In this document: piece after piece, positions 14,666-61,851 of the stretch
Layout of the letters: every line of letters starts with the position of its first letter
How positions within the stretch are numbered: the first letter of the stretch is position 1
Source: a virus
Length of the DNA stretch: 64,000 bases
IMG/VR virus record: IMGVR_UViG_3300027759_000063
Span: 1 to 64,000 of that record
Direction: 5' to 3' (one strand)
The notes under the pieces: model-generated
Databases searched by the model: none
What the model saw: the letters and a program-made list of their open reading frames with translations, nothing else
Told to the model about the DNA's origin: nothing
Program-made: the position numbers and the translations under genes

Positions 14666-14989
14666 TTAAACTCTAAAACTTTCTCCACAACCGCAGCGGT
14701 CGCGTTCGTTGGGGTTGCTGAACTCAAAGCCTTCGTTGAGGCCTTGACGCACATAATCTACTTGTGTGCCACGCAAGTAGACATCATGTTTTTTGTCAAC
14801 TATAACACAAAAATTTGGTTGAGCATAGTTTATGGTACTGTCATCAGCACAGTATTCTTTCACGTATTCTAACACATAAGCCAGCCCTGAGCAACCGGTA
14901 GTTTTTACACCCAGTCGTATGCCGGCATAGCCTTTGGTTGTTACCAATTTTTGTATTTTAGATTGTGCTTGATCAGTTATGGTTATCAT
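14666..14989 (-). CDS. iscA: A-type Fe-S carrier protein IscA/HesB
   Basis: Delivers Fe-S clusters to target apoproteins. The 107-residue protein has the complete A-type signature: TTGCSGLAYVLEY with C33, and near the C-terminus DRCGCGESF with C99 and C101. These are the three cysteines that bind iron or the cluster. It is the third gene of the iscU - radical SAM - iscA operon. A late promoter core (14994..15001) lies exactly 5 bases before its ATG, which predicts a leaderless late mRNA. IscA/HesB genes are known from cyanophages; its pairing with IscU here is the notable point. Confidence 0.92.
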   Translation of the reverse strand: MITITDQAQSKIQKLVTTKGYAGIRLGVKTTGCSGLAYVLEYVKEYCADDSTINYAQPNFCVIVDKKHDVYLRGTQVDYVRQGLNEGFEFSNPNERDRCGCGESFRV

Positions 14990-14993
14990 GTTA

Positions 14994-15001
14994 GTATTTA
15001 C
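14994..15001 (-). promoter_or_regulatory. Late promoter core in front of iscA (leaderless geometry)
   Basis: GTAAATAC on the minus strand overlaps the stop codon of the radical SAM gene and leaves exactly five bases (CTAAC) before the iscA ATG. In T4 late promoters transcription starts about six bases after the TAAATA core, so the mRNA would begin on the initiator codon. No ribosome binding site fits in this gap. Confidence 0.6.
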
Positions 15002-16698
15002 TAGTCAATCTCACTGCATAATTCACTTATGATTTGACTGATATTGGGCTGCAATCTTAAATGAGCAAGTTTTCTTGATGTGTCTTTTGACAAGAATTTT
15101 GTAATGTATAAAATAAAATTTTTGTCTTTGGCCAATGTGATTCCATATGATATGGGCTCGCATGACAACACAACCGGCTGGTCAGAAAAATCTTTTGTGA
15201 AATAGAATTTTTGTTCGGTAGACCAGTTGATATAAAGATTATTGCATAAACTATGATACTGGTGGCTGGTCAAAAAGTCATCAATTATTGGCTCAATCTC
15301 TATGTGCGACCCGGCTTGTTGTGTCAGCACAAATTTTATCACACTTAGTGCATTGTAGACTCCTGACAGCACTGTCATTTCTACCAGCTGTTTTTGATCA
15401 AAAGACACACACTTTTTAGGAATCTCGCTGGTGTAAAAATCAAAACCAGGATCAATACGTGTGGATTTTACATATTCAAATTGAAATCGGCGTTGATACT
15501 CAGGGTCGTACATGGCAGGACTGGCCGGCAATGGTTCATTCAAAAACACAATGGGCAATATGTTTGCCTCAGTTATCTGACGCAGTGTTTGCCGCCAGGT
15601 CAAGGGAGTTTGTCCAGGTAATCCGTAGATCAATTGTGCTTTTACAATCAACTGAGGATGTTTGGTCACCAGTTCACGGGCCATGGCAGCATGAGTTTCC
15701 CAACCAACATCTGGACGATCAATGTTTTTTAATATTTCTTCATTGGTGTCTTGTATGGAAAAATTTAATGTTTTTTGTACCAGGCCGCTTTCGGCCATGA
15801 TGTTGAAAATTTTTAAATTTACATCTTTGCGTAGTTTGCTGTAGTTGCCGCTGATTTTGAATCCAGCATTTTGTTGCAGATTTTTTTGTGCAAAATACTC
15901 TATCATGGCAACATCTTCGTCGTACTGCCCAACGTTGGCATCTGACAGGTAAATTTGTTTGATTCCTAATTCGTAAAACAAATCAATTTCTTCCTGGTAG
16001 GTATTTTTTCGTCGCGATATTTTATTTCCTAGCCCGCTGTTCCAATCACAAAAGGTACACGAATAAGGGCAACCTCTTGTCAAGGTGTACGGCAGATATA
16101 AAACACCGTTGCGTTCCAGCAGAGTGCGAGTCATTTCAGCAAACAGTTTTCTATTGTGCGTAAATGGACTTGTACTGATCATTTTTACAAACTTGTAATC
16201 TGCTGTGATTGTTTGCCCAGTGTTGGAATTTACCCATCCACAGTTGCTAGTGTTAAATGCTATCAACGGAGTTTTACCAACCAGACTTTTGATTATGTCT
16301 GCAAATGCCTGTTCGCCTGCGCCGTAAACTGCATAATCAATATATGGATTTTTTTCAAAAAATGCTGGGTCAAGGTTGATGTTGATACTGGGCCCACCGG
16401 CAATGATCTTGACACGTGCGGATAACTGTGGTTTGATTTTGCTCAGTTGATCGGTCAAGTAGTCATGATTCCACATGTAATGACTGGTACAAAGCACATC
16501 AGGTTTATGCTGTTCCACATAGTCCAGTAACTCTTTATTGGTCAATGTTTGTTGAATAGGAACCAACCATTCCAATTGATCAGCAATCTCTGGGTAGGTT
16601 ACATCAACATAAGTTTTCAAATGTAACACCGCTGGATACAGCCAAGATTTTGTTCCACCAGCATGATACAGCAGTATACGAAATCGTTGACCCGTCAT
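15001..16698 (-). CDS. B12-binding-type radical SAM enzyme
   Basis: A 565-residue radical SAM enzyme of the two-domain type. The N-terminal about 150 residues form a Rossmann domain like cobalamin-binding domains (VLCTSHYMW, KIIAGGPSIN, DYAVYGAGEQAF), though the cobalamin DxHxxG motif is not evident. The radical SAM cluster motif is TRGCPYSCTFCDW (C210, C214, C217), with KIYLSD-like and SGNYSKLRKD strands of the TIM barrel after it. Substrate unknown. It is flanked by iscU (4 bases upstream) and iscA (overlapping late promoter), which could build or repair its [4Fe-4S] cluster (inference). Confidence 0.85.
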   Translation of the reverse strand: MTGQRFRILLYHAGGTKSWLYPAVLHLKTYVDVTYPEIADQLEWLVPIQQTLTNKELLDYVEQHKPDVLCTSHYMWNHDYLTDQLSKIKPQLSARVKIIAGGPSININLDPAFFEKNPYIDYAVYGAGEQAFADIIKSLVGKTPLIAFNTSNCGWVNSNTGQTITADYKFVKMISTSPFTHNRKLFAEMTRTLLERNGVLYLPYTLTRGCPYSCTFCDWNSGLGNKISRRKNTYQEEIDLFYELGIKQIYLSDANVGQYDEDVAMIEYFAQKNLQQNAGFKISGNYSKLRKDVNLKIFNIMAESGLVQKTLNFSIQDTNEEILKNIDRPDVGWETHAAMARELVTKHPQLIVKAQLIYGLPGQTPLTWRQTLRQITEANILPIVFLNEPLPASPAMYDPEYQRRFQFEYVKSTRIDPGFDFYTSEIPKKCVSFDQKQLVEMTVLSGVYNALSVIKFVLTQQAGSHIEIEPIIDDFLTSHQYHSLCNNLYINWSTEQKFYFTKDFSDQPVVLSCEPISYGITLAKDKNFILYITKFLSKDTSRKLAHLRLQPNISQIISELCSEID

Positions 16699-16701
16699 GA
16701 A

Positions 16702-17073
16702 TCAATGTTTCTTTCGATAGTCTTCCACTGCGGCTTTTATAGCATCTTCAGCAAGAATAGAACAATGAATCTTGACTGGTGGCAGTGCGAGTTCCTGAGC
16801 AATCTCTGAATTTTTAAGAGCTGCTGCCTCGTCAAGTGTTCGTCCTTTAACCCACTCGGTAACAAGAGAGGATGAGGCAATGGCACTTCCGCATCCGTAT
16901 GTTTTGAACCTGGCATCTGTGATAATTCCGTTTTCAACTTTGATTTGCAATTTCATCACATCGCCGCAGGCCGGTGCTCCCACCATGCCTGTGCCAATGG
17001 TGTCGTCAAGTTCAAACTTGCCCACATTGCGTGGATTTTCGTAGTGATCAATTACTTTTTCTGAATAGGCCAT
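16702..17073 (-). CDS. iscU: Fe-S cluster scaffold protein IscU
   Basis: The scaffold on which [2Fe-2S] and [4Fe-4S] clusters are assembled. The 123-residue protein is intact: GAPACGDVMKLQI (C36, D38), TYGCGSAIASSS (C61) and the chaperone-recognition motif LPPVK followed by IHCSILAED (H103, C104). It closely resembles bacterial IscU of proteobacteria, so recent acquisition from a host is likely. It is the first gene of an operon with a radical SAM enzyme and iscA. A perfect sigma-70 promoter (17091..17119) and an AAGGAA ribosome binding site precede it. IscS, HscA and HscB are not in the window and would be supplied by the host. Confidence 0.95.
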   Translation of the reverse strand: MAYSEKVIDHYENPRNVGKFELDDTIGTGMVGAPACGDVMKLQIKVENGIITDARFKTYGCGSAIASSSLVTEWVKGRTLDEAAALKNSEIAQELALPPVKIHCSILAEDAIKAAVEDYRKKH

Positions 17074-17128: not shown

Positions 17129-17482
17129 TTATACGCCGCGGTCTTTGCCGGCAGCTGATTTGGCCGAGGCGGCCACAATATCTTGTGCTTTGTTCACCGG
17201 CATCTCGGTTGCACCAGTGTTGGCACCTTTGTACATGATCACACCAGGTTTGCTGGGATCAATTGGTTCTAACACACTGTCCAAGGGTGGCGTACTCACC
17301 ACGCTGATAATATTACGTTGATTGACTGGAAATCCCAAACTTTGTGCGGCACTTATAAATGCATCAGTACTGATTTGCTTTTGTGCATTTTCGTCATCTG
17401 CGCGGCCTGAAAGAAAATTCACCAAACCCATCAGTTTGTTTGGGTCTAGTGAATTTGAATTTTCGACTTCGTCGATTCTCAT
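17129..17482 (-). CDS. Small virion or head-associated protein, unknown
   Basis: A 117-residue acidic protein, MRIDEVENSNSLDPNKLMGL, helical in the middle (NAQKQISTDAFISAAQSLG) and ending in a flexible basic tail (ASAKSAAGKDRGV). Its N-terminus fits loosely the short targeting peptides seen on other proteins here (charged start, IDE). It overlaps the stop of the following 298-aa gene by one base, suggesting a joint transcript from the late promoter at 18402..18409. No enzymatic motif; the head or virion association is inference. Confidence 0.6.
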   Translation of the reverse strand: MRIDEVENSNSLDPNKLMGLVNFLSGRADDENAQKQISTDAFISAAQSLGFPVNQRNIISVVSTPPLDSVLEPIDPSKPGVIMYKGANTGATEMPVNKAQDIVAASAKSAAGKDRGV

Positions 17483-18378
17483 TATCTACGTGCTCGGCCC
17501 AGTGCGGCTCCGGCTGGTGCAGGTTCTTCAGCACCCATTTCAGCACCCATTTCAGCACCCATTTCAGCACCTAGATCAGCGCCAACATCGGCACCCATTT
17601 CAGCACCAGGTACTGGGGCAGGTGCAGCACCTGGCATGCCACTGGCGGCCATGCTGGTGTCTAGTGCGGCAGGTTGACCTGTTACCACACCCAGTGCTGT
17701 TTCTAACTGTTGTTTGGAACCTTGCAAGTTTTGCACAAGGCCTTGCAATGCCGCAGTTACATCACTGTTGAATTGTGTGGCTTGTTCCATGCCAATTTGA
17801 TTACGGATTGAGTCAACCAAGGCAGGCAGTTCTTTGAATTGCATCTCTGTGGTGTCTTCCAGCATTGATTGCATTTTGTCCACCATGTCTTGTGCAGCCA
17901 ACACCACTTGTGCCTGCTGAACTTCGGATTCTTTCAAGAACTGGTATGCTCTACGCAAACGGCTTTCGGCAGTCAGTGTGGCCTGTGCATTGATTAGTTC
18001 TTGTTCTTCAGGGGAAGGCTCCTGACCTTTAGCCAGTTTGTCTTTGGCTGCCTTGAGCTTGGCCGCGGCTGCTGGATCAGCTGCCACGTTGCCTGTTGGC
18101 TTCATCGCGGCACCTGCTGGTGGTACCATGTCTTCGCTCACGCGGTGAGCCAGTGCCTGTTCCATCATGACCAGTTTCAAATACGCAGGGTTGCGTTCAC
18201 TGGTGTGACGACCGGTGCCACGCTGATGTTCAGCAATCACGCCACGCACACGTTTCAACATGGCCTGTGCTTCACGCACTGTGAGCCGGTTCACAGGCAT
18301 TTTTGTACCAAAATAACTTTCAAATACTTGGGCTACTTGGCGGCTCTTTTTTGGTGTGGCCAGTTCGGTTAATTTCAT
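17482..18378 (-). CDS. Structural or core-like protein with AEMG repeats
   Basis: A 298-residue protein starting MKLTELATPKKSRQVAQVFE. The first about 210 residues are long amphipathic helices (for example RLRRAYQFLKESEVQQAQVVLAAQ), like scaffold or prohead core proteins. The C-terminal 60 residues are low complexity Pro/Ala/Gly with tandem AEMG/ADVG units ending in a basic RARR. A late promoter core (18402..18409) and a GAGGAT ribosome binding site precede the ATG at 18378. The function is inferred from architecture and expression class only. The repeats are encoded by 12-base units and could vary in number without frameshift. Confidence 0.65.
   Translation of the reverse strand: MKLTELATPKKSRQVAQVFESYFGTKMPVNRLTVREAQAMLKRVRGVIAEHQRGTGRHTSERNPAYLKLVMMEQALAHRVSEDMVPPAGAAMKPTGNVAADPAAAAKLKAAKDKLAKGQEPSPEEQELINAQATLTAESRLRRAYQFLKESEVQQAQVVLAAQDMVDKMQSMLEDTTEMQFKELPALVDSIRNQIGMEQATQFNSDVTAALQGLVQNLQGSKQQLETALGVVTGQPAALDTSMAASGMPGAAPAPVPGAEMGADVGADLGAEMGAEMGAEMGAEEPAPAGAALGRARR
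17529..17600 (+). repeat. 12-base tandem repeat inside a structural gene
   Basis: CAGCACCCATTT is repeated in tandem three times and more loosely once or twice beyond (17529-17600), encoding AEMG units on the minus strand near the C-terminus of the 298-residue protein. The unit length is a multiple of three, so copy number changes keep the frame. A further copy at 17598-17610 follows degenerate units. Confidence 0.85.
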
Positions 18379-19597: not shown

Positions 19598-20005
19598 TTA
19601 CAGGTTAGTAAATGTTGCACTAGCAGCAACGTTGCCGGTTGGGATACCAATGTTCAAGCCGCCTGTGGCATTGGCTGTTTGAGCAGCGGCAACCAAGGTA
19701 GCTGTGGTGTAAGCACCTGTTGGGTAGATAGCCAAGTTGATTGTGCCAGCTGTTGCACCTGCTTGGTACATAGCAATAGTGCCAGTTTGTTGGATTGCTG
19801 TCAACACATTGTTTAAGTAACCGTTGACGTTACCAGCATTGGTAAGGGCAGCGTTGGCTGTGAGTGAGAAGAAGTCCAGTTTTGGACCAGCAACTTGTAC
19901 TGGGCCTTGTGCCGCAACGTTGGCTGTGCCAGATATACTGCCATTAGCAACGTCCAGTGCAAATACTGGTTGTGTAGTTCCATTTACTTTTGTAAATTGT
20001 GCCAT
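19598..20005 (-). CDS. Small virion protein, likely decoration-type
   Basis: A 135-residue Ala/Thr/Asn/Gly-rich protein with few charges (MAQFTKVNGTTQPVFALDVA, ANAALTNAGNVNGYLNNVL, TGNVAASATFTNL), a composition typical of abundant beta-structured head or tail decoration proteins. It stands alone between a consensus late promoter (20050..20057) and a strong intrinsic terminator (19546..19580), an arrangement that fits a highly expressed virion component. The ATG at 20005 follows a TAAAGGAAA ribosome binding site. The exact location in the virion is unknown. Confidence 0.7.
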   Translation of the reverse strand: MAQFTKVNGTTQPVFALDVANGSISGTANVAAQGPVQVAGPKLDFFSLTANAALTNAGNVNGYLNNVLTAIQQTGTIAMYQAGATAGTINLAIYPTGAYTTATLVAAAQTANATGGLNIGIPTGNVAASATFTNL

Positions 20006-20049: not shown

Positions 20050-20057
20050 TATTTATA
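20050..20057 (-). promoter_or_regulatory. Consensus T4 late promoter TATAAATA
   Basis: The full octamer TATAAATA on the minus strand, 45 bases before the start of the 135-aa virion protein. It is the only other exact match to the T4 late consensus I found besides the one at 51195..51202. This supports a gp55-type late system. Confidence 0.75.
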
Positions 20058-20070
20058 CCTTTGGTAAAAA

Positions 20071-21984
20071 TTACCCCGGTTGTGGATTATTTCTAGCCGC
20101 ATTTCTTGCTGTAAAGTCAAATCTATTTACCGCTTTGCCATAACCTGCAGGGGTGGCCATGACCCAGCCCTCGTGCCCAGGATCCTTTAAATCCAGCTGG
20201 CGTAGCACACCTAATTTTAAATCATGCAACATTATAAACAAGGTAAATGCCGCTGCCATGCCTTGTGTGTTTGAAGTAGGGCTCTGCAAGTATTCCACAA
20301 TGTTAGCAAATTTACGTGGGCTTACCTTGGTTTGTAACCATTCACCAAATCCTGGCAGCAAATTGTCAAAGTTGCCACTGCTTTTAATTCTGTAGTTGAT
20401 GTAGTCCACACACAGTTTTGCTAAATCTGTGATCTGTTGTGCTCGCAGTTCTGCAGGATTAAACAAGGTATCAATGGCAGAACCGTGGCTGGCAATCAAA
20501 GATTTGATTTGTTTGACTTGTTCAATGTCAGGAGTCATTTCTTTGGCAAATATGGGTTCAATCAACAACAAGCCCGGAACATCGTTAAACTTCACCCGTT
20601 TCAGTGGCTGCTTGGGTTCACCTGCATCTGAGTACATGGTGTGCATGGCAATTCCAATTTCGCTGTTGCCTATGCGCTGTCCTAGAGAACTTTTTGCAGG
20701 AATACGATATTGTACAGTGTTGGGTTTGAACACATAGTTTCCGGATTCCAAAGGCGGAGTATTTTGATACAACAAGTCGCCTTGTACATAGCCACGAAAG
20801 TTTGTGGGCAATGCTGCTTCTAATGCAGGGAACAATCTAGCATAGGTCTGAATTAATGCACTTCTATCACCCGAACGTGTGCGCTGTATCTGCGCCATCA
20901 TTTCTGGCGAAGTGGCCAGTCCATCATACCCTTTGGCTTCAAACCCTGATCCGTCTGTGAGTACAAACTCTCCGGTGTCGGGCTTGCGTCCAAAGTATAC
21001 AGCAGGCATGCCGTCCCATTTGACACTGGTTGTAGTGCCAGGACTAACAGCGGCATGATCAAGTATGCTCAATGCTTCTGTCGCACCGCGCGAACCTTTG
21101 CGAAAGATTAAATCTTCCAAGTGTTCAATGCCCTTGGCTCTGCCGCCCACATTGCCTTCATCAGCTTCGTAGATTCTATAGGGATTGGCTGCTTCGCGTT
21201 CTACCAAGGGCTGCATGCCTTGGTTCACAATCCTATCACGTAGGCGTGCCAGGAAGTAGGTGTCTGTATTTTCTGTCACAGCGTCAGGCTGTGGTAAACC
21301 TTCTTTGGTCAAGTACTCACGGAAGTCTCGGATCTTGACTTCCCGATCTTTGTCTCGAGTCAAGGCAGCAAATATGGTTTCCACTGTGCTGAGATTGGCT
21401 CGTGTGGCACTGGGTCCAAGGATCATACGTGCTGCCTCGTCAGGATCCATGGTCAACAATTCATTACTGGTCCTACTGAACACACCATTGGCGCCTATTT
21501 TGAGTCCCAGTTGTTTGGCAATGCTTGACATCAACACAGCACGGTTCATGCCTTTGTAGGCTGATCCTGCGCCTTGGTTGTAGTAGAATGTGCCCCAGTC
21601 CAGGTTGGGGAAGAACATGAAGTCTGTTTGCACATAGCCCAGTTCGGGACGTCCTTGAATGGGTGTGCGCAGGTGTACTTCGCCGCCTTTTTTGATCCAC
21701 TCTGCAGGAGGCAGTTTGTGACTGGCAATCCACTGTGTGAGTTTGGCAGCCAATTGATCTTTGGAAATTTCACCAGCGTCCACAGCCAGGTCCATGTCAC
21801 CAGATGTGGCGGCCTTGCCGGTTGAGCCCAACCAACGCTCGCGTGGAAATTGCAAACCTGTGAGCTGTTCCAGCCAGGCCACAGTGGCAGGTACATCGCT
21901 TTGGTTGATACGTTGTGTGAGTGGTTGGCCATCTGCATCTTTGAATACATTGCCACCTTCTAATAACATGCGTAGGCTTTTCAT
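20071..21984 (-). CDS. Double nucleotidyltransferase-like protein with capsid-targeting N-terminus (DUF6267-like)
   Basis: A 637-residue protein with two apparent nucleotidyl-transfer domains. Residues 51-66 (WLGSTGKAATSGDMDL) fit the polymerase-beta-type NTase motif GS-x8-DxD (D63, D65), with a third acidic residue in VQTDFMFF (D121). Around residue 322, SVKWDGMPAVYFG matches motif I (KxDG) of covalent ligase/capping nucleotidyltransferases. A GYVQGDLLYQ strand and VFKPNTVQYRIP later resemble motifs III and V. The N-terminus MKSLRMLLEGG looks like a T4 capsid-targeting peptide with an LxE|G protease site. It overlaps the preceding gene by ATGA. Function unproven; packaging and injection are inference. 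Confidence 0.7.
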   Translation of the reverse strand: MKSLRMLLEGGNVFKDADGQPLTQRINQSDVPATVAWLEQLTGLQFPRERWLGSTGKAATSGDMDLAVDAGEISKDQLAAKLTQWIASHKLPPAEWIKKGGEVHLRTPIQGRPELGYVQTDFMFFPNLDWGTFYYNQGAGSAYKGMNRAVLMSSIAKQLGLKIGANGVFSRTSNELLTMDPDEAARMILGPSATRANLSTVETIFAALTRDKDREVKIRDFREYLTKEGLPQPDAVTENTDTYFLARLRDRIVNQGMQPLVEREAANPYRIYEADEGNVGGRAKGIEHLEDLIFRKGSRGATEALSILDHAAVSPGTTTSVKWDGMPAVYFGRKPDTGEFVLTDGSGFEAKGYDGLATSPEMMAQIQRTRSGDRSALIQTYARLFPALEAALPTNFRGYVQGDLLYQNTPPLESGNYVFKPNTVQYRIPAKSSLGQRIGNSEIGIAMHTMYSDAGEPKQPLKRVKFNDVPGLLLIEPIFAKEMTPDIEQVKQIKSLIASHGSAIDTLFNPAELRAQQITDLAKLCVDYINYRIKSSGNFDNLLPGFGEWLQTKVSPRKFANIVEYLQSPTSNTQGMAAAFTLFIMLHDLKLGVLRQLDLKDPGHEGWVMATPAGYGKAVNRFDFTARNAARNNPQPG

Positions 21985-23588
21985 AGTTGTCTAATTTTTT
22001 TCAATAGTGTTCGGCTAGGGTCAAAATTGCCACTCCAGATCAAGGATTCGTTAAGTTTACCTGCAAGTCCTAATTTTATAGCATCTTGTTCACTTGTGCC
22101 TGGTGGAACTTTGGCTGCCATGGCCGCAGCTTGTGGAACTGTGAACCCCATCTTTATCAGCGCCTGTGCTATATCAGATGGTTGTTGAGCAGCTGGTCCA
22201 GGCGCAACTGGTGCTTGCTGTTGTTTCTTCTGAGGTGCAGCAACTTGATTTAAATCACTAGTTTGTTGCTTGATAATTTTTACTGCTTTTGCCTCGGCAC
22301 CAGCAGCTAGATTAAGTTCATGGTTGCCAATTTGGTATGTGCCTTTAGGTCCGATTGAAATGTTGGGTAGTTTGCCATCTTTGAACTGATCTTTAATAAT
22401 GTTACCAATCAGTTTGTCTGTGGTGTCCTGCATGTTTAATGGGTAATTTCCAATTTTAAATGCTCCGCCAGGAATGCTTGTAATAAGTGGCATTTTTTTA
22501 CCAGCACCATGTTCTATGGTTTTGGGGTAGAACTCCAATAACGATCGCATGTCGTAGGTGGCCTGTGACAGATCTTGCCAACGTTGTAATTCAGCAGCCG
22601 GAGCACTTTTGGGTGCATTAAAATTCAATATGGCTTTTATGGCATTATTTAATTTGGCCACTTGTGCGGCTGCTTCTTGTGTGGCTTTGCCATTGACATA
22701 TTCTGGAAGTTTTTTGTAATCTTTGCCTAATTTGCCTTGCAAGAAGTTGGTGTATATTTGATTCATTAGACTTTGGGCCAAGGCTTGTTTGGTCGGGGTG
22801 GGCAATTTTGCAGGGCTAGCCACGCCGTTCTGTTGCAATGCTGCGGCCATGGCCTGATTCCACTTGGCTAGTTCTTGGCGGGCCTGTTGACTGATGAGTG
22901 GTCCAGCAGCCTTGGCGGCGGCAGCACGTTGGTCACCGTAAGCATTGTTGTCGCCAGTATCAGGTACACTAAGTCCAACTGATGCGGCATTGTGTGCTGC
23001 CAATTTGTTGCCCAAGGAACCCACTATGGCAGCCATTCTGGACCCTTGCACACCAGGTGTGCTGGGAGCTGCTGCCACGGGAGTTACTTTTGATTTTTGA
23101 GTAGGGTCTACTGAACTTGCCGGGGAAGGTTGTGGCACTGGTATAGCAGCCGTATTTTGGTAGCTTTGTATACCTTGAGATGCTTGCCTAGCAGAGGGCA
23201 CTGTTGCTGAATCCACAGCAGGAGTTTCTGTAGGCGCTGGCAATGTTGGTGCAGAAGATGTATTTGATTTCTCTTTGGCCACAACATCAGTTACATCAGA
23301 CGTGTCCGTACCAAATTGTTTTGTGGCAGCTGGTCCTGTCAATTGTGCTGGTGCATCAATTGTTTGTAGTTCAGGAGCAGTAGTAGTGTTAGCCACTGCA
23401 TTGGTTGCAGGTGCTGCCAGCCTTGGTGTCGCGGCGGCCTGCGGGGCTCCTTTTATTCTGGGAGTCCCAGTCATTTGTGGTTGCACACCTGGACCCACGC
23501 CTGTGCCATAGTCTTTTTTGGGTGGGGGTCTGCTGGGATCGTATTCTTTTAAATTTCTTTTGCTAGAGGTAAGTTCAAATATCTGCAT
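21981..23588 (-). CDS. Low-complexity virion or head-core protein
   Basis: A 535-residue protein starting MQIFELTSSKRNLKEYDPSR. Residues about 20-210 are a disordered Pro/Ala/Thr-rich region; later parts are helical (QQARQELAKWNQAMAAALQQ) and the end is LIWSGNFDPSRTLLKKIRQL. The short charged start resembles targeting peptides of head proteins; LKE|Y could be a protease site (weak). I placed the start at 23588 (14-base overlap with the upstream gene) rather than an ATG at 23696, which would bury most of that gene. It shares a late transcript with the nucleotidyltransferase-like gene. No enzymatic motif seen. Confidence 0.65.
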   Translation of the reverse strand: MQIFELTSSKRNLKEYDPSRPPPKKDYGTGVGPGVQPQMTGTPRIKGAPQAAATPRLAAPATNAVANTTTAPELQTIDAPAQLTGPAATKQFGTDTSDVTDVVAKEKSNTSSAPTLPAPTETPAVDSATVPSARQASQGIQSYQNTAAIPVPQPSPASSVDPTQKSKVTPVAAAPSTPGVQGSRMAAIVGSLGNKLAAHNAASVGLSVPDTGDNNAYGDQRAAAAKAAGPLISQQARQELAKWNQAMAAALQQNGVASPAKLPTPTKQALAQSLMNQIYTNFLQGKLGKDYKKLPEYVNGKATQEAAAQVAKLNNAIKAILNFNAPKSAPAAELQRWQDLSQATYDMRSLLEFYPKTIEHGAGKKMPLITSIPGGAFKIGNYPLNMQDTTDKLIGNIIKDQFKDGKLPNISIGPKGTYQIGNHELNLAAGAEAKAVKIIKQQTSDLNQVAAPQKKQQQAPVAPGPAAQQPSDIAQALIKMGFTVPQAAAMAAKVPPGTSEQDAIKLGLAGKLNESLIWSGNFDPSRTLLKKIRQL

Positions 23589-23841: not shown

Positions 23842-23850
23842 ATTATTTAG
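23842..23850 (-). promoter_or_regulatory. Leftward late promoter core
   Basis: CTAAATAAT on the minus strand, about 20 bases before the ATG at 23823. Together with the rightward core at 23866..23873 it forms a divergent late promoter pair in a 69-base intergenic region. Confidence 0.55.
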
Positions 23851-27731: not shown

Positions 27732-28811
27732 TTAACGATAAAAGATATTGGTAACGTAGCCAGTTGTGATCAGCACAGTCACAGCCTGTGCTTCGGTGCC
27801 ACCGTAATTTAACGGCAAGTATCCCGAACCACCATTGGTCACTGTAATTTGACCAATGCCACTTGGGCCGACAAATGGTTCACCAATGGCAGTTGCACCA
27901 GCACCATTGCCTAGAATTTGAACACAGGGCGCAGCCATGTATCCCGAACCGGCGTTGTTTACAGCAATGCCAGTCACAACTCCATCAACTACAGTGGCAG
28001 TTGCACTTGCCCCATAACCTTGGCTGTTGTTCAATCCCAGACGCAACAAGGGATGGAAGCCCACAACATTGATGTAAAAAGTGCCGGACTCGTCAAAATA
28101 CTCACGGCTCTCAGTAACATCCACCCAAACGGCTTCATAGTCTTGCGCTGCCTGTACTTTGAGTGTGCCAGTGTAATGCACCAGATCATACTTGATTGTG
28201 GTCAAGCTGGCACCTGTGGTATCAATATGGCTTGAATAGTATTCAGTTAGATAATGAGTACTCAATGGCTGTGGGTTCAGAGCCCAGTCTGGCCATGAAC
28301 TTGGTCCTGCCTGTGGCCAGGAGTTTTTGCCATTTATTGTGGGAATTGTGACAGGTTGGCTGGCTATAAATTCAGGCAAGACTGAGTCCACAATGTCACA
28401 GTCAGCTCTGGCACCGGCATTGTCGTCTGTGAATGCTGCTTGTACATAATTGCCTTGTGTGCGCTCGATGCTGTAACTGCCTGGTTGTGCTAGAATATTG
28501 ATAGTGTCAGCAGTGTCCAAAACAACTTTGACCCGGCCCAAACTGGCACTGAGTACAGTCATGTCTTTTTCAAGTAATAATTCATCACCAGTTTGGTTTA
28601 GCAATCTAAAGCGGAATGTGCTGCCTGTGATATTCACAGGTTTTTGGTCTTGGTTGATGAATTCAAAGAGCAGAACGTTGTCTACACCTTTGTTAACAGT
28701 TAAAGTTTTTGCGTACACAGGGTCGTACCTCGCAGTAAAGTATCCACCACTGGTGTCAATCAATAATACCCTAATGATTTGTTGATATAAGTAAATGGTG
28801 GTTGAATACAT
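27732..28811 (-). CDS. Structural protein with glycine-rich GSGY repeats
   Basis: A 359-residue protein starting MYSTTIYLYQQIIRVLLIDT. The first two thirds look like beta-sandwich domains (KPVNITGSTFRFRLLNQTGD, QDYEAVWVDVTESREYF). The last third has repeats of the type VTGIAVNNAGSGYMAAPCV and ITVTNGGSGYLPL, a short beta module found in many phage fibre or baseplate proteins. A late promoter core is 15 bases upstream (28826..28833) and the ribosome binding site is GAGGAT. Probably a tail or fibre-associated protein (inference). Confidence 0.7.
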   Translation of the reverse strand: MYSTTIYLYQQIIRVLLIDTSGGYFTARYDPVYAKTLTVNKGVDNVLLFEFINQDQKPVNITGSTFRFRLLNQTGDELLLEKDMTVLSASLGRVKVVLDTADTINILAQPGSYSIERTQGNYVQAAFTDDNAGARADCDIVDSVLPEFIASQPVTIPTINGKNSWPQAGPSSWPDWALNPQPLSTHYLTEYYSSHIDTTGASLTTIKYDLVHYTGTLKVQAAQDYEAVWVDVTESREYFDESGTFYINVVGFHPLLRLGLNNSQGYGASATATVVDGVVTGIAVNNAGSGYMAAPCVQILGNGAGATAIGEPFVGPSGIGQITVTNGGSGYLPLNYGGTEAQAVTVLITTGYVTNIFYR

Positions 28812-61096: not shown

Positions 61097-61483
61097 TTAA
61101 CGAGGGTATCCAGCAAATGCCCGTACAGGACTTTGTTTCTGCACAGATGCAGGTTCCAGGCTGTTTGGTGTGCTGATTTGTACTTTTTTAACAGGCAAAC
61201 CAGCCATTTTCAATGCTTGATCAATTATGGGTTCAACACTGGCATTGAATCCACCAACCACTGCTTCTTCCCCAAACGCAGCCTTGGGCGACCAAGCCGG
61301 CAACTTAGCAGTGATGCCATCTGTGCCGGCGTCACTTCTGGCACGGGCCATGGCCACACCCAGTCGATAGATCTGATATGGATCGCTGGACTGTACTCCG
61401 GGCAATGTGAACACATGGTTCATGGGATCTGCTTGCTCAGGAGGCAGTGTTGTTTCTTCAGTGATAAACTCTCTGGCTCTCAT
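61097..61483 (-). CDS. Probable packaged protein with capsid-targeting N-terminus A
   Basis: A 128-residue protein starting MRAREFITEETTLPPEQADP. This start matches the T4 internal-protein targeting peptide (M-x3-EFI-x-E) with a prohead protease site ITE|E. The body is small and mixed (YQIYRLGVAMARARSD, DQALKMAGLPVKKVQI) and the end is SPVRAFAGYPR, nearly identical to the end of the neighbouring 123-residue protein. No enzymatic motif; likely an internal head protein processed and packaged (inference). ATGA-coupled to its paralogue upstream. Confidence 0.7.
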   Translation of the reverse strand: MRAREFITEETTLPPEQADPMNHVFTLPGVQSSDPYQIYRLGVAMARARSDAGTDGITAKLPAWSPKAAFGEEAVVGGFNASVEPIIDQALKMAGLPVKKVQISTPNSLEPASVQKQSPVRAFAGYPR

Positions 61484-61851
61484 CTGGGATAGCCCGCAAA
61501 TGCTTTTACAGGACTGCTTGTGTTCACAGCAGGATGTTCTTGACTGCGGAGGTCACCGTGATTTAAATCTTCATGATGACTGCCCACAGCCTTGTAGGCC
61601 ATTTTCATCATGTCTTGTTCTTCAGGGGTATACGGTGCGGCAATGTTGTTGCGTCCTGCCCAACTCTCGCCATCTATTTCAGGTACAAATGTGCCATCTG
61701 TTGAGGCCACAGCCATCATGATACGATTGAGTTCATACACACGGTCAGCAAATTGCGCATCACGAAACTTGTTCAAGCCCACTGTGCCTATGTCAAGTCG
61801 TTTGCTAATTTTGCCAACTTTGTCTTCAGCAACAAACTCTGTGGCTCTCAC
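61480..61851 (-). CDS. Probable packaged protein with capsid-targeting N-terminus B
   Basis: A 123-residue protein starting MRATEFVAEDKVGKISKRLD, again a T4-like targeting peptide (VAE|D). The body has RVYELNRIMMAVASTDGTFV and PEEQDMMKMAYKAVGSHHED; the C-terminus is SPVKAFAGYPR. Conserved start and end with unrelated middle suggest modular internal head proteins. Two bases after the preceding gene's stop; overlaps its partner by 4. Function unknown. Confidence 0.7.
   Translation of the reverse strand: MRATEFVAEDKVGKISKRLDIGTVGLNKFRDAQFADRVYELNRIMMAVASTDGTFVPEIDGESWAGRNNIAAPYTPEEQDMMKMAYKAVGSHHEDLNHGDLRSQEHPAVNTSSPVKAFAGYPR

Follow-up and report, generated by a model that had tools for sequence, protein, structure and literature searches.

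Organization of the locus

A single gene in a 64,000-nucleotide stretch of viral DNA (positions 1 to 64,000 of IMG/VR record IMGVR_UViG_3300027759_000063, hereafter the window) encodes a 637-residue protein made up of a short leader, a pol-beta-type nucleotidyltransferase (NTase) domain, a disordered linker and a ligase/capping-type domain (Table 1). The start of the gene is well supported, since its ATG overlaps the stop codon of the upstream gene as ATGA. The protein is assigned to PHROG 455, which is functionally unannotated. The source genome record, a 99.6-kb fragment, contains a gp23 major capsid gene, indicating a T4-type phage and head, and a DNA ligase of the phage itself is encoded at 864-2237 (PF01068, E=1e-19). 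Helicase and primase genes lie near the NTase-ligase gene, and virion genes are also among its neighbors. A search for tRNA genes close to the locus returned nothing informative. Elsewhere in the window, ARAGORN reports a 98-nt tRNA-Tyr (27901-27998, minus strand) that lies within an open reading frame (27732-28811) and may be a false positive, and proteins that by eye resemble IscA, radical-SAM and IscU proteins are clustered at 14666-14989, 15001-16698 and 16702-17073.

Table 1. Features of the NTase-ligase gene and its immediate surroundings (window positions; a slash marks a predicted cut)
Feature	Position	Strand	Basis or remark
Upstream gene	21981..23588	(-)	Overlaps start of NTase-ligase gene; probable start MQIFELTSS (start choice inferred)
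Whole gene, 637 aa	20071..21984	(-)	ORF list; ATGA overlap with upstream gene
Leader MKSLRMLLE, residues 1-9, predicted prohead-protease site LLE9/G10	21958..21984	(-)	Conservation; pLDDT < 50 at 1-7
Pol-beta-superfamily NTase domain, residues 10-235	21280..21957	(-)	AlphaFold2 pLDDT mostly > 90; Foldseek
GSTGKAATSGDMD, metal-binding motif with D63 and D65	21790..21828	(-)	Alignment conservation
QTDFM, third catalytic Asp D121	21616..21630	(-)	Alignment conservation
Disordered interdomain linker, ~residues 236-279	21148..21279	(-)	Low pLDDT at 237-276
Linker sites LVE262/R and IYE273/A, predicted second prohead-protease cut	21166..21207	(-)	Linker conservation
DUF6267 ligase/capping-type covalent nucleotidyltransferase domain, ~residues 280-637	20074..21147	(-)	Pfam, AlphaFold2, Foldseek
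Motif I KWDG, predicted nucleotidylated Lys K322	21010..21021	(-)	Invariant in 56 sequences
Motif III QGD, 401-403	20776..20784	(-)	D403 invariant, G402 nearly invariant
Motif IV EGWV, 605-608	20161..20172	(-)	E605, G606 invariant
Motif V Lys K617	20134..20136	(-)	Invariant
Exact T4-type late promoter core TATAAATA	20050..20057	(-)	Directly after gene; presumably serves next gene 19598-20005

The first-pass annotation had placed the gene in a late unit on the strength of a promoter core at 23842-23850. This argument fails: the site reads CTAAATA, which occurs seven times in the window against 4.4 expected and is not enriched, and no late promoter lies directly before the gene. The exact core TATAAATA that follows the gene is kept in 56 of 80 loci; in 77 close relatives it does not occur in the 130 nt that precede the domain start. 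TATAAATA lies before the DUF6267 gene in 14 of 103 loci and before 92 of 953 other ORFs, with no clear enrichment.

Two nucleotidyl-transfer folds in one chain

AlphaFold2, run on a 66-sequence alignment, gave a whole-chain model (mean pLDDT 88.2) with two well-ordered domains and a poorly ordered leader and linker. Both domains were modelled at high confidence, the first as an NTase fold and the second as a ligase-like fold. The models, Foldseek searches and invariant catalytic residues agree on two nucleotidyl-transfer folds, as had been proposed from the sequence. Searches of PDB sequences with the 637-residue protein and five alignments returned chance matches only. Profile comparisons with bacterial PolX, RlaP, Rnl2-type and ATP-dependent DNA ligases also scored at chance level and yielded no assignment, although for one PolX the alignment did fall on the right motif. 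Neither domain is tied to a characterised enzyme family by sequence alone.

The anticipated pol-beta-type motif, GS-x8-D-x-D (G53, S54, D63 and D65) with D121, is present, and its catalytic aspartates are invariant. Residues G53, G56, S61, G62, D63, D65, D69, Q119 and D121 are unchanged in all NTase-bearing rows of the alignment, and D63, D65 and D121 remain so in a 35-sequence NTase alignment in which identity falls to ~25%. Foldseek comparison of the whole-chain model with the PDB highlights Pol lambda, TdT, Pol mu and Pol beta as the best matches to this domain (Pol lambda 4k4g, E=7e-4, prob 1.00), with TM-scores of 0.3-0.5 on the target for the Pol X fold. The GS, the DxD, the third Asp and the fold place the domain in the pol-beta NTase superfamily.

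The first half of the protein has no match in Pfam. Five records were compared with the RlaP model PF10127; none matched even at E<=10, although the controls did, and RlaP membership is rejected on this family model. The Pol X palm and thumb models do not match the 637-residue protein either (best thumb match in any relative, E=0.085), and the 8-kDa lyase and fingers of Pol X are not recognised in it. Homologs of the NTase occur at one locus among 84,980 cellular species genomes, and the family therefore looks phage-specific.

The second domain belongs to DUF6267, a Pfam family with no assigned function (PF19782, residues 286-628, E=5.8e-32, 111.9 bits against a gathering cut-off of 27); a literature search found no paper mentioning DUF6267. 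The first-pass annotation had described a separate KWDG motif I around K322 with plausible motifs III and V, and this description holds: G402-D403, E605-G606-x-V608 (motif IV) and K617 are also present. Invariant in 56 sequences are K322, W323, D324, G325, D403, E605, G606 and K617, which supply the motif set of covalent nucleotidyltransferases (I, KxDG; III; IV, EG; V, K). Modelled alone, the domain has a pLDDT of 92.8 and a pTM of 0.88, and contains a helical stretch of ~110 residues between motifs III and IV. DNA ligases, RNA/tRNA ligases and capping enzymes account for all of its first 31 Foldseek matches, a consistent list with marginal E-values (best E=3e-3, prob 0.99) that assigns the domain to the covalent nucleotidyltransferase fold. 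The Rnl1, Rnl2 and DNA ligase models PF09511, PF09414 and PF01068 do not match the 637-residue protein, and no OB domain is recognised in it; one DUF6267 relative matches PF09511 weakly (E=0.017).

DNA polymerase X and DNA ligase are the nearest solved folds of the two domains, and the main rival explanation builds on them: a virion-carried Pol X-like gap filler and an ATP-dependent DNA ligase would mend gaps, nicks and ends of the incoming genome. The fold matches of the NTase, among them the palm-thumb fragment 3lqc_B (TMt 0.50), are consistent with DNA repair, as are the DNA ligases at the top of the Foldseek list and the motif GS-x2-K-x4-SGD[MI]D, which resembles the Pol X palm motif of a bacterial PolX (GSLRRGRETVGDLD). 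However, no Pol X or DNA ligase family model matches the protein, and the lyase, fingers and OB accessory parts are not recognised. The phage already encodes a DNA ligase, and the partners of the NTase in jumbo phages match RNA_ligase. On balance, DNA repair is considered unlikely.

Leader, linker and virion evidence

The N-terminus MKSLRMLLE/GG had been singled out as a capsid-targeting start. It is present, and its L-x-E/GG fits the T4 gp21 rule. In T4, gp21 cuts after L-x-E or I-x-E, and a 10-residue segment of IPIII suffices for targeting (PMC9026906); LLE9/G10 provides such a triplet near the N-terminus. Among 62 unique relatives of the GG[NK][VI]F type, Glu precedes GG in every one and [LI]-x-E in 61. 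The leader has 9 residues here and ~5 in 22 of these 62, the latter shorter than the 10-residue CTS of T4. Homologs in jumbo phages begin M-GG or M-SG, at the residue expected after cleavage.

A second conserved site lies in the linker. In the 45-residue stretch that precedes the ligase HxED motif, [LI]xE is found in 42/42 unique fused linkers, followed by A, G or S in 40 of them; by comparison, [LI]xE[AGS] occurs in 7% of random 45-residue segments of other ORFs and in 0.5% of those from the two domains themselves. None of the site counts, in linkers, leaders or N-termini, are independent trials, because the relatives are related by descent. The 637-residue protein has five [LI]xE triplets in all, ending at E9, E262, E273, E476 and E564. 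Leaders such as MRAFEFLTE/A, MNRFAQYISE/A and MKKFRDILAE/A are frequent on free-standing ligases and cytidyltransferases. The motif [LI]xE[AGS] falls within the first 14 residues in 37/61 NTases, 22/53 cytidyltransferases, 14/94 ligases and 62/1043 other ORFs. Many DUF6267 proteins of cyanophages lack a leader (MAKNTHLEH...).

Similar N-termini, as if a common capsid-targeting leader were shared, were seen in several proteins of this phage: MRIDEVENS, MKLTELATP, MRAREFITE, MRATEFVAE and MKNFAHYLAE (window 17129-17482, 17482-18378, 61097-61483 and 61480-61851; L090:2751-3377). In the Methylophilales phage Melnitz-1, the gene before DUF6267 (L087:4887-5972) has the leader MQGFKTFLSE/A, and by eye its product contains a PDDEXK-like nuclease motif (TDILIG...FSLKIG).

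The virion evidence is indirect and comes from two proteins of related systems. The NTase homolog of phage PA5oct, EST35_0231, is annotated 'structural protein, ESI-MS/MS'; the annotation of the ligase-like gene of the same phage, EST35_0228, carries no MS note. The cyanophage cytidyltransferase T4-GC190 is an experimentally found virion protein (PMC3037559) and adjoins DUF6267 (T4-GC71) in P-SSM4. No report of DUF6267 itself as a virion protein was found in the literature. In a 343-kb relative carrying the fused gene (G004), a gene for a gp21-type S77 protease lies a short way upstream of those for the scaffold and gp23; no S77/gp21 protease was found in the 99.6-kb source fragment.

The leader site, the linker site and the virion detection of both a homolog and the cyanophage partner strongly suggest capsid targeting and cleavage. 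The proposal of a capsid-targeted, injected enzyme is thereby supported in part, and it may hold for the source phage itself, although leaders in the family are often of ~5 residues. A different explanation is that the NTase and ligase are produced and act inside the infected cell without being packaged, the [LI]xE motifs being structural or coincidental. Nearby helicase and primase genes, leaderless cyanophage DUF6267 proteins and short leaders would suit such a pair, but the invariant Glu before GG, the conserved linker site, the PA5oct and T4-GC190 virion proteins and the adjoining virion genes all argue for packaging, and we regard an unpackaged pair as improbable.

Recurrent pairing across phages

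Two NTase types in one chain had been called unusual. Both are present, but the description needs qualifying, because the two-domain pairing recurs and is common in environmental T4-like phages. Freshwater viral contigs often contain near full-length relatives (best 80 of 572 stretches). A further 80, more distant loci were fetched with the NTase as the starting point: a DUF6267 gene lies nearby in 51, the two domains are fused in 18, an RNA-ligase-like gene lies upstream in 5, and no partner was found in 6, some of them on short contigs. A ligase-like partner, fused or adjoining, thus accompanies 74/80 NTase relatives, many of which are near copies; clustering leaves 15 groups with fused and 19 with single-domain NTases. 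Fused and split states have interchanged at least twice on the tree.

In Phosso and Atu_ph07, both jumbo phages, a gene containing a KLDG motif lies upstream of the NTase gene and overlaps it. Neighbors of this jumbo type match PF09414 RNA_ligase weakly (E=1e-4, 8e-4 and 2e-3; Phosso, 0.085). Hundreds of T4-like cyanophage records and many freshwater phages contain a match to DUF6267. The cyanophage DUF6267 (T4-GC71), to which the second domain described here belongs with a score far above the curated threshold, pairs instead with the HIGH-motif 'cytidyltransferase' T4-GC190, which lies beside it in 56/80 cases and is fused to it in 2/80; in the present protein it is fused to a pol-beta NTase. 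One contig (L123:701-3997) contains a single 1099-residue frame in which an HD domain is joined to a HIGH-type cytidylyltransferase-like domain, this NTase and what looks by eye like a KIDG ligase-like domain; FKE/GG and LSE/GG occur at two of its domain junctions.

Proposed function

Sequence and models together demonstrate both domains and both active sites, their genetic linkage, and conserved [LI]xE sites at the leader and linker. We give an even chance to the reading that the protein is a capsid-packaged, protease-split NTase and ligase pair, most likely mending cleaved RNA, in which packaging, cleavages, delivery and RNA substrate are inferred. The gene product would be a two-enzyme precursor of a T4-type myovirus that enters the prohead during head assembly. 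A gp21-type maturation protease would cut after E9 and remove the leader, and a second cut, probably after E273 (or E262), would release the NTase and the ligase, so that both could enter the cell together with the DNA at infection. There the NTase would restore or extend broken nucleic-acid ends, using metal ions held by D63, D65 and D121, and the ligase, adenylated on K322, would seal them. The most likely substrate would be RNA cut by host defence nucleases, for example tRNA.

The RNA-end-modifying activity suggested in the first-pass annotation is plausible, because jumbo homologs adjoin RNA-ligase-like genes, although the nearest fold matches are DNA enzymes. RNA is favored since the jumbo partners match RNA_ligase, one DUF6267 member weakly matches Rnl1, and a replicative DNA ligase is already encoded by the phage. 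RlaP (PF10127) with its ATP-grasp RNA ligase is alike: there too a pol-beta-type NTase is linked genetically to a KxDG ligase, and the two are predicted to replace missing nucleotides in cleaved tRNA and rejoin it (PMC7824862). By analogy, the phage NTase and KxDG ligase would follow the logic of RlaP plus RNA ligase, a logic that could also serve DNA. In contrast to the RlaP systems, the phage NTase is not matched by the RlaP model and its ligase is not matched by the Rnl1 or Rnl2 models, and the pair has apparent virion packaging and protease sites.

The protein also resembles polyvalent proteins, multi-domain phage proteins thought to be packaged and injected (PMC5512222), but it is small, has two linked activities, and apparently relies on cleavage by the head protease rather than on its own peptidase. 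Pol-beta NTases of injected polyvalent proteins are predicted to modify proteins (PMC5512222), which raises the alternative of an injected effector acting on host proteins, for example by AMPylation, with the ligase-fold domain donating the nucleotide or serving as a second modifier. Retention of the full ligase motif set I, III, IV and V and the RNA-ligase-like partners in jumbo phages speak against such an effector, which we consider very unlikely.

For the preferred NTase and ligase pair, the T4 internal proteins and Alt, which are processed by gp21, offer a likeness in that their leaders end in L-x-E before a small residue; in the phage family the leader is often shorter, and there is an extra conserved site between two enzyme domains. 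It is tempting to generalize that a widespread phage lineage carries a capsid-packed two-enzyme precursor, split by the head-maturation protease and brought into the cell along with the genome, so that nuclease-based host defence is undone ahead of phage gene expression, a tentative proposal that we place somewhat short of even. DUF6267 gains a testable function from this proposal. T4 expresses nucleic-acid repair early; the present system suggests that such repair can instead arrive in the virion. It also suggests a further use of the head protease, in which a multi-enzyme precursor is split inside the capsid.

Further genes were seen at the loci compared. A third gene, with no Pfam match, lies beside the NTase-ligase pair in marine and jumbo phages (L121:7183-8136, L082:6818-7519, L083:6647-7579, L094, L112 and L149), and another locus (L091:6985-14544) encodes a 2519-residue protein of GNITGGN-like repeats, probably a fibre.
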